From the NCBI GenBank assembly GCA_028819845.1, contig JAPPKS010000017.1, positions 1 through 64,000 on the forward strand: a stretch of 64,000 nt of DNA. The letters are read 5' to 3'. A program made the position numbers and the translations under genes. The notes beneath the pieces are model-generated. The model made no database searches and was not told where the DNA came from. It saw only the letters and a list, made by a program, of their open reading frames with translations. Origin of the DNA: Candidatus Poribacteria bacterium (GTDB lineage: Bacteria > Poribacteria > WGA-4E > PCPOR2b). Below, piece by piece: positions 19,504 to 45,772 of this stretch. Position 1 is the first letter of the stretch, and every line of letters starts with the position of its first letter.

Positions 19504-20214
19504 ATAAAGCCGGAATTTGGACAGAAACCCAAAGAATGGTCCGATTCGATGCAGGCTATTCATAAATCAATCTCACAATTACTTGGGGATGTGAAAGTGT
19601 TCCACGAAATGCGAGATATAGTCTCTGAAAATCCTCATCTTCCAAAAAGTCATCGCTTCTATGACTATCTTTTCGATTCTTATATTTCTCATGTAATTAT
19701 GGGCATACGTCGACACATTAAATATAGAGATAATCGAATTATATCCTTTGCGCGAGTACTTAAGGAGATTGTTGATAACCCGCACCCCGAAATGTTGTCC
19801 CGCAGTGCACTTCGTCCAAGTTCTGGAGGTCCGACCAGCCCCCAACGGAAGCCGACAGGTATGGATGACTTCGCTAAATTTGCAGACCCAAGCGGAACAT
19901 ATGTATGCCAGCAAAAGGTAAAAAAGGATCTGGACGAACTAAAGGCAACGGCTAAAGCCTGTGAGGCTGTTGCAGATAAACGTATTGCTCATCGGGAAAA
20001 GGGGCCGCCGTCGATTATACCAATTGCGACATGGGAAGAGCTAGAACGTGAGATTGGTAAGAGCCTTGATGTGTTGGAGGAGAAATGTGTGAAATATTAT
20101 GAGCTATTCTTCAATGTTGGGGCTGCCACGATGATTCCAACCGCTCAAGGCGAATGGGGCGAGTGGAAAACCATCTTCTCTATATCATGGATGCCGCCGA
20201 CCAATAATCGGTAA
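19504..20214 (+). CDS. HEPN/AbiU2-like protein, possible ATA start
   Basis: A 236-residue (from ATA) or 221-residue (from ATG 19549) soluble, mostly helical protein. Its layout recalls the HEPN AbiU2 family: a helical N-terminal part (HRFYDYLFDSYISHVIMGIRRH), a FAKFADPSG segment, and then ADKRIAHRE followed by a helix ending KCVKYYELF. AbiU2-type proteins are linked to abortive infection and often act as RNases. The Arg usually preceding the DK..AH motif is Ala here, so activity is uncertain. The gene sits 34 bases after the J-domain/TPR gene and is likely in one operon with it. The family call is from pattern recognition and is moderate; the extra N-terminus KPEFGQKPKEWSDS would be translated only from the ATA. 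Confidence 0.6.
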   Translation: MKPEFGQKPKEWSDSMQAIHKSISQLLGDVKVFHEMRDIVSENPHLPKSHRFYDYLFDSYISHVIMGIRRHIKYRDNRIISFARVLKEIVDNPHPEMLSRSALRPSSGGPTSPQRKPTGMDDFAKFADPSGTYVCQQKVKKDLDELKATAKACEAVADKRIAHREKGPPSIIPIATWEELEREIGKSLDVLEEKCVKYYELFFNVGAATMIPTAQGEWGEWKTIFSISWMPPTNNR

Positions 20215-20423: not shown

Positions 20424-22115
20424 ATGGAATTTACTGCAACGCAAGCAAATCTTCTAAAAGCAATCAAGTCTCTCCAGTCGCGGGCGGCGCGAGATAATCA
20501 CCTAGAGTATATCTCCGATGTGCGTGTGCGTAGCATTGAGAACGATAAGCTAGAGCTTTCAACCTCAGACACAAAAATTACAATTGACGCGGATGTTACG
20601 CAACCGGGGACGGTAATTCTGCCCGTCAGACGGCTGAGTGAGGTAGTCCGTGCCGGACAACGCGCCGAGTTCCGCATGCTCCCGGAAGGGCAAATGCAAG
20701 TGGATTGCGGCGGACAGACCTATTACCTGAGCGCGTCTACCTACGTGCCACAGTCTCCAGCGGCGGAAACAGCAATCGCGGTAGTGACGCCAAAACGTCG
20801 TACGGTGCGCAATTCGATGGTATTCTCTGTAGTCTCACACGTTATCTTGGCTTTCGCTATTTTCCTGTTTGCAAGGGACGACGCGGATGAAATTAAAGAT
20901 GCGATTGCGGTCGAGATGGTGAAGCCGCAGCCGAAGGTTAGGCGGTTGAAAAAGATCAAGCCCAAACCGCCTGAACCGGTGCCCCAACCCGCGCAACAGA
21001 TTTCCCAACCCGTTCGAGTGTCTTCTGCTCCGCGAGTTGCTAGGCCTGTCGCGGCTGCTCCAAGCCGTGTGTCGATGGACGTGTCCCCATTAGTTCCGGA
21101 TACGATTGTAGATAGTCCTGTAAAGACGGTGGCCGACATCGAACCCAAGCGTAACGAGGAGGTCATTGCCCCCGCAGTCGGCGGGCGTCGAGGTCCCGAT
21201 AAGGGGCGCGGGTCAGGTACAGAGGCAATAAACGGACGCGGCCGAAGCGGCACAGGCGGTATTGACTCGCTAGTTGGCACGGTCGGGGCAGCCGACGCTG
21301 GCGCCGGAGGCGTTGGAGACGATCCGTTGGCTAAAATCACCACGGTGCCTGATGATAAGTTAGGTGCAATATTAGAAGGGGAGGGCGCTGACATACAAGG
21401 TCATATCCGCTTCACTCGACTAATTCATTCACTAGCAGATTGGTGGCAAGATCCTTCGGCGCTGCCGAGTTTCATGCGGTGGTTATCGGACAACACTCGC
21501 CTGCGTGCGGATATGAAACTGGAGGGCGGCGCCATGCGAATGACAGATCCGAGAATCCTTGATGCACCCATCATTGTGATGACAGGGCACGATAAAGAAT
21601 TGACCACAACGCGTAATCTAATGCGGGGCGAGCCGTGGATGGTGGGTTTTACTCCTGCAGAACGGTCGGCAATGAGAAAATACCTCGTGGAACGCGGTGG
21701 GACGCTATTTTTCGATGATTGCGGGTTCAAGGGCTTGTTCGCCGCGCGTGTCGCGGATGAATTGAAAAAAATCCTGCCAGAATATCCGCTTAAGTCAATC
21801 CCGCACAACCATGAGATTTATTCCATCTATTATAAGCTATCAATCCCTCCGAATGGGTCTGATGTTTACTGGGGATCTGAAAATAATCCTAAAGTCACGA
21901 AGTTTAAATACCATAAGGCGATTACGATTGGACGTCGTGTCGCAGTGCTTTATAATCGGAAGGATTATCTCTGTGCGATGGAAACAGCAGAAATCCCAAG
22001 TCGGACCATGCTAAGGATGCGCCGATCCGCTGATGTGCATCGGTTTATGGTCAATTTATTTGTGTATGCGATGAAATACGGGGGAAATACCGATCGATCC
22101 GCTTATAAAAAATAA
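20424..22115 (+). CDS. Fusion protein: beta-clamp domain I, membrane anchor, Pro-rich linker, DUF4159
   Basis: A 563-residue protein with an unexpected build. Residues 1-115 look like the first domain of the DNA polymerase III beta sliding clamp (start MEFTATQANLLKAI; then KLELSTSDTKITI, PGTVILPVRRLSEVV, YYLSAS). Residues 131-150 are one membrane helix after a basic stretch (TPKRRTVRN), predicting an inside N-terminus. A TonB-like Pro/Lys-rich linker and a Gly-rich segment follow, to about residue 325. Residues ~327-555 are a DUF4159 domain (HIRFTRLIHSLADWW, GHDKEL, GGTLFFDDCG, IPHNHEIYSIYYKL). Clamp domains II and III are missing, so it cannot be a working clamp. A stand-alone DUF4159 protein is encoded at 45095-45772. 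The start has a GAGG site (AAGAGGTGTT) shortly before the ATG. Function unknown. Confidence 0.82.
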   Translation: MEFTATQANLLKAIKSLQSRAARDNHLEYISDVRVRSIENDKLELSTSDTKITIDADVTQPGTVILPVRRLSEVVRAGQRAEFRMLPEGQMQVDCGGQTYYLSASTYVPQSPAAETAIAVVTPKRRTVRNSMVFSVVSHVILAFAIFLFARDDADEIKDAIAVEMVKPQPKVRRLKKIKPKPPEPVPQPAQQISQPVRVSSAPRVARPVAAAPSRVSMDVSPLVPDTIVDSPVKTVADIEPKRNEEVIAPAVGGRRGPDKGRGSGTEAINGRGRSGTGGIDSLVGTVGAADAGAGGVGDDPLAKITTVPDDKLGAILEGEGADIQGHIRFTRLIHSLADWWQDPSALPSFMRWLSDNTRLRADMKLEGGAMRMTDPRILDAPIIVMTGHDKELTTTRNLMRGEPWMVGFTPAERSAMRKYLVERGGTLFFDDCGFKGLFAARVADELKKILPEYPLKSIPHNHEIYSIYYKLSIPPNGSDVYWGSENNPKVTKFKYHKAITIGRRVAVLYNRKDYLCAMETAEIPSRTMLRMRRSADVHRFMVNLFVYAMKYGGNTDRSAYKK

Positions 22116-45094: not shown

Positions 45095-45772
45095 TTAATG
45101 TGTTAGTGCATAAACTGCTATATTAACCGCCATCTCTGCGGCGAGTTGACGAACTTCATGAGAGTCCTCGGGATGAATTTCTGAATCTTCCAACCCATCC
45201 CCAATGTCTGAGCTATAAGCATAAAAAACCACCATCCGCCCTTCGTGAAACAGTCCAAAGCCTTGTGCCGGTTCAGCATCATGTTCGTGAATTTTCGGCA
45301 AGCCATGCGGAAAATCATAAAAACAGTGATAGATTAGATGTGAATTCGGTATCGGTTGAAGTTCTTCATTCGGGAACACACGGCTCATTTCACGCCGAAA
45401 ACTCTTGTCAAGTCCATAGTCGTCGTTCGCGAAGAGAAAACCGCCGCGCATTAGATAAAGACGCAATGCCTCGACCTCATTCTCTGTAAGGCGGATATTA
45501 CCGTGCCCGACAAGGTACAGCATTGGATATTGATATACGTTACGATCCGTTAGCTTTGTAAATACGCGATTGTCGGCAGTCTCAATATCGGTGACGCTGC
45601 TAAGCCTTTTAAGCCAGTTGGGAATTACAGTCTGATCGCCGTACCAATCTCCGCCGCCGCCGTATTGAACTTGGGCTATCACGAATTTATCGCCCGCCGC
45701 TTGGACGGATACGGTTAGGGCGGCTAGTCCCCAAATAGCTGAAAAGAGTACCATTCTTCGATAATTTTTCAT
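45095..45772 (-). CDS. Secreted DUF4159 protein
   Basis: A 225-residue protein made of a signal peptide (residues 1-26, MKNYRRMVLFSAIWGLAALT) and a single DUF4159 domain (FVIAQVQYGGGGDWYGDQTVIPNW, YLVGHGNIRLTENEVEALRLYLMRGGFLFANDDYG by its ends, PNSHLIYHCFYDFPHGLP). The domain may have a glutamine-amidotransferase-like fold, as related proteins have been described; the activity is unknown. The same domain ends the fusion protein encoded at 20424-22115, but there it is membrane-anchored. The gene lies between the VWA and DUF4175 genes, 90 bases before the latter. Confidence 0.85.
   Translation of the reverse strand: MKNYRRMVLFSAIWGLAALTVSVQAAGDKFVIAQVQYGGGGDWYGDQTVIPNWLKRLSSVTDIETADNRVFTKLTDRNVYQYPMLYLVGHGNIRLTENEVEALRLYLMRGGFLFANDDYGLDKSFRREMSRVFPNEELQPIPNSHLIYHCFYDFPHGLPKIHEHDAEPAQGFGLFHEGRMVVFYAYSSDIGDGLEDSEIHPEDSHEVRQLAAEMAVNIAVYALTH

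Follow-up and report, generated by a model that had tools for sequence, protein, structure and literature searches.

At positions 20424–22115 of the window, by which we mean the whole 64,000-nucleotide stretch of DNA analyzed here, the forward strand of this Candidatus Poribacteria genome carries an open reading frame of 563 codons, placed as in a first-pass annotation made from the sequence alone. It begins with an ATG, preceded by aagaggtgttATG. The encoded protein consists of a β-sliding-clamp domain I that forms a cytoplasmic head (aa 1–105; 20424–20738), a short and variable cytoplasmic linker with the basic cluster KRRTVR ahead of the membrane (20739–20807), a transmembrane helix of the TonB/TolA type (aa 129–156; 20808–20891), a periplasmic linker that is first Pro-rich and then Gly-rich (aa 157–304; 20892–21335), and a DUF4159 domain (aa 329–550; 21408–22073). 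All of these features lie on the forward strand. An AlphaFold model of the full 563-residue protein follows the same division, with a folded head, low pLDDT at residues 110–128, a helix at 129–156, disorder (pLDDT <50) over 157–304 and a folded C-terminal domain. The gene immediately upstream (19549–20214) matches HEPN_AbiU2 below threshold (2.1e-4).

The first 115 or so residues had been recognized in the first-pass annotation as the first domain of the sliding clamp, closing on the motif YYLSAS, which indeed lies at about aa 105. Matches to curated families are modest. PF00712 is found at 2.3e-5 when aa 1–115 are searched alone, barely above the curated Pfam cut-off, and at 0.0006 with the whole protein, while the NCBIfam dnaN model TIGR00663 matches the N-terminus at 1.7e-6. 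Four of the five fused proteins described below match PF00712 individually, the best at 2.3e-8. Therefore, the assignment was tested independently by structure and by profile. The structure of the head was predicted with AlphaFold from the five fused sequences only, using an alignment that held no clamp sequence at all. The resulting model (mean pLDDT 79.5) shows the β-α-β…-α-β-β-β order of a clamp domain, and its best 50 PDB matches in Foldseek were all bacterial β clamps, with a probability of 1.00 and TM scores of 0.62–0.71 normalized over the query, disordered tail included. A profile built from the five fused N-termini, in turn, recovered domain I of true DnaN proteins throughout the phylum at about 1e-19 to 1e-10 (best true DnaN, 2e-19); 79 of 85 poribacterial genomes gave a match with E ≤ 0.001. 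Against PDB clamp chains, its matches were confined to the first ~130 residues, that is, to domain I. These model and profile results settle that the fused heads are homologous to DnaN domain I.

Of the three tandem domains that build the dimeric ring, domain I alone is present: Pfam searches of the window protein gave no PF02768, and PF02767 appeared only below threshold, overlapping the same residues. The peptide-binding pocket of a clamp sits between domains II and III, both of which are missing here. Fused heads were compared in an alignment with poribacterial clamps and with the E. coli DnaN encoded in NC_000913, and the conservation of each structural element was expressed as mean pairwise identity in the two groups. 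Helix α-1 (aa 7–23; 20442–20492, forward strand), which lines the channel in clamps, is the sole part equally conserved in both, at 0.61 among fused heads and 0.62 among true clamps, with L10, L11, K12, L17, Q18 and A21 invariant in the fused proteins. The remaining elements have drifted, with values of 0.39 versus 0.92 for the DNA-contact loop, 0.28 versus 0.86 for the TDLE turn and 0.32 versus 0.85 for the last edge strand (99–103). The RNTLPILSN loop and the TDLE motif are among the most conserved features of real poribacterial clamps, and both are lost in the fused heads. At the position of R24, which together with T26 and P28 belongs to the DNA-contact loop of E. coli DnaN, the five heads carry D, Q, H, H and R; T26 and P28 are replaced, and TDLE is absent. 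Constraint on the fused head is now centered on helix α-1.

These losses bear on what the head could do. The first-pass annotation had offered two options, namely recruitment of clamp-binding proteins to the envelope and reuse of the fold as a protein-binding module. The former draws on the homology to DnaN domain I, but with the domain II/III pocket, the DNA-contact loop and TDLE gone and the edge strand diverged, recruitment of proteins bearing clamp-binding motifs is highly improbable. The latter fares better: reuse of the fold is supported. A different proposal would have the head bind domain III of DnaN in the way that subunits of the ring meet head to tail, and thereby tether or sequester DnaN on the membrane, which would connect replication with the envelope. 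Domain I is precisely the half-interface that this would require, and the equivalents of E. coli K74, I78, F106 and L108 in the window protein (R, V, Y and L) are all conservative. However, three of the five fused proteins have W/T/H/F, W/I/H/F and Q/F/V/L at these positions, and the edge strand so well kept in DnaN is poorly conserved among the fused domains, which makes such pairing distinctly unlikely. Overall, the head looks like an exapted fold whose working residues, and with them the clamp function, have been lost.

The part that follows the head resembles a TonB-type energy transducer. The TonB-like anchor proposed in the first-pass annotation carries a Ser-x3-His motif (S135/H139 in the window protein), which is kept in the helix of all five fused proteins and occurs in 77 of the 80 family members from the genome scan, compared with 9% of shuffled segments. 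In TonB, Ser16 and His20 contact ExbB, and the equivalent pair of TonB/TolA proteins contacts ExbB or TolQ (PMC12215075). The motif thus marks a TonB-like, probably ExbBD-coupled protein. Basic residues precede the helix, and those following it are mostly acidic or neutral, a pattern that places the head in the cytoplasm and DUF4159 outside, as had been suggested. The same genome encodes one ExbB, a second protein of the MotA/ExbB family and two ExbD proteins; their genes are non-adjacent, and the fused gene shares no operon with them. No Pfam family of TonB C-terminal domains matches the window protein.

In that C-terminal position stands DUF4159, whose presence had been claimed and is borne out by PF13709 at 4.7e-28 (98.5 bits, against a cut-off of 25.9). 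The best fold match of the full-length model is Hoch_4089 of Haliangium (PDB 4i66; TM 0.76 normalized to 4i66); this is a relative by fold only, since phmmer found no PDB relative of the DUF4159 half at E 0.01. TonB-like proteins of this DUF4159 family occur in all 85 poribacterial genomes searched, and no paper on DUF4159 was found in the literature searched; the present analysis gives a first handle on the domain. The window holds a second DUF4159 protein on the reverse strand (45095–45772), encoded between large membrane-protein genes. Its 225 aa begin with a signal-peptide-like stretch and include no TonB anchor.

The full architecture is found in 5 of the 85 poribacterial genomes. The four other assemblies with the complete ORF are UWMA-0119, B30T1B8, SP142 and Arabian9_MAG_50, at an overall identity of 41–51%. 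An assembly or frameshift join of dnaN to a DUF4159 gene was considered for the junction at 20700–20900, which the first-pass annotation had singled out for checking. No result of the analysis favors it, and it was rejected as practically inconceivable, given the same full-length ORF in four other MAGs and a head only about 26% identical to the DnaN of its own genome. In the remaining genomes, throughout the phylum, the DUF4159 relatives have no head. In-frame stretches ahead of 35 unfused relatives were mostly short and none was clamp-like by eye, and all matches outside the five fused proteins started at about residue 60 of the profile or later. No neighboring gene is common to all five fused genes; agreement is limited to two sister genomes.

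The fused heads descend from a single lineage: in a clamp-domain tree they form one clade apart from all DnaN, with support of 97/94, a grouping to be read with caution because of its long branches. By contrast, they are placed as a basal grade, and not as a single clade, in the tree of DUF4159, which may reflect loss of the head elsewhere or poor resolution of the tree. Between the two closest fused genes, dN/dS of the head is 0.14 (NG86) or 0.34 (YN00), and that of the DUF4159 part 0.02. The head is thus under purifying selection, being less constrained than DUF4159. Leaving one close pair aside, the fused proteins share 28–43% identity in the clamp part and 58–80% in DUF4159, and the faster divergence of the former means that its role may be weak. 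The head might even be a passenger, a 5′ fragment of dnaN accidentally fused in frame and tolerated without a specific function, as its presence in just five of 85 genomes, its fast divergence and the headless orthologues across the phylum would allow. Yet frame and fold have stayed intact in five lineages despite the low identity, dN/dS lies below 1 and helix α-1 has been selectively kept, so that a mere passenger appears unlikely.

The reading that we favor, with a probability of about 0.58, is that of a TonB-like transducer with DUF4159 as its periplasmic effector and an exapted clamp fold as a cytoplasmic docking or gating head. The protein would be an inner-membrane energy transducer in which DUF4159 replaces the TonB C-terminal domain as the periplasmic working part, and which has gained a degenerate sliding-clamp domain I at its cytoplasmic end. 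Its Ser-x3-His helix would dock on the ExbB–ExbD proton channel of the cell, which in turn may move or load DUF4159 through the long disordered linker. Directly beneath the channel, the clamp-derived head could bind a partner by helix α-1, and such binding might position or gate the motor. In a speculative and quite improbable extension of this scheme, the head of the proton-driven TonB-type motor would touch a replication- or DNA-bound partner, be it DnaN or some other, and would thereby tie work at the envelope to replication of the chromosome.

Whole clamps are also reused elsewhere in Poribacteria, in observations separate from the clamp–DUF4159 fusion. At least 33 of the 85 genomes, counted by full-length matches, contain an ECF sigma factor, with regions 2 and 4, in frame with a complete three-domain DnaN-like clamp; none of these matches falls in a genome with the clamp–DUF4159 fusion. 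Five loci were inspected, one of them truncated; examples are L044:7629–9359, L045:6579–8306, L046:6634–8388 and L048:6985–8733. In four of the five (L045, L046, L053 and L048), a Shine–Dalgarno-like GGAGG lies just 5′ of the internal ATG of the clamp, which may thus also be made alone. The fusion recalls T4 late transcription, where the sigma factor gp55 acts with the clamp gp45. Other ECF sigma factors have different long C-terminal extensions (L046:9789–11039, L046:11691–13670 and L044:10721–11944), one of them with PD40/WD40-like repeats, and an RBS-like aaaggag before an in-frame ATG at L046:9789 suggests repeated merging of sigma factors with downstream genes. A single genome encodes a 693-aa protein in which a three-domain clamp is joined to a complete FtsZ, with both tubulin GTPase and FtsZ_C parts (L052:5929–8007, reverse strand). 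Finally, genomes of family f3 carry full-length dnaN genes in tandem sets of two or three, with the DNA-contact loop kept (L198:4154–7648, L197:1748–4366 and L201:4758–7172). Literature searches on poribacterial clamps and ECF–clamp fusions found nothing relevant.

Sliding-clamp domains are usually viewed as components of a DNA-bound ring. In this protein, one such domain stands detached from the ring and devoid of its DNA-handling residues on what would be a membrane energy transducer, still folded after long divergence, and would offer a clean example of clamp-fold exaptation. Its architecture is novel and its components are known: a search of the literature for membrane–clamp fusions found nothing relevant, in line with the first-pass annotation, which knew of no counterpart.

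With domain I of the β clamp (PF00712), the window protein shares fold, length, end points and the LLKAI..LQS.A pattern of helix α-1; unlike DnaN, it has no domains II and III, its DNA-contact loop, TDLE and edge strand have diverged, and it is anchored in the membrane. Hoch_4089 resembles the fold of the DUF4159 part, but its chain of 200 residues lacks both the clamp head and the anchor. The unfused poribacterial TonB–DUF4159 proteins (about 440–500 aa) are alike from the membrane helix onward, with 42–54% identity over the aligned part, and differ in having no clamp head. GltJ has cytoplasmic domains as well; these are unrelated to the clamp head. Myxococcus GltJ and GltG are modular TolA/TonB-like proteins (PMC5349195) that likewise operate with a proton channel, but they contain TonBC motifs in place of DUF4159, and their NCBIfam match to the window protein is sub-threshold only. 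With TonB and TolA themselves, the protein has in common an N-in Ser-x3-His helix, a Pro-rich disordered periplasmic linker and a C-terminal periplasmic domain, in a genome with ExbB and ExbD. It differs from them in ending in DUF4159 and in possessing a folded cytoplasmic domain, which TonB proteins normally lack (PMC8262864), and this makes the added clamp head notable.
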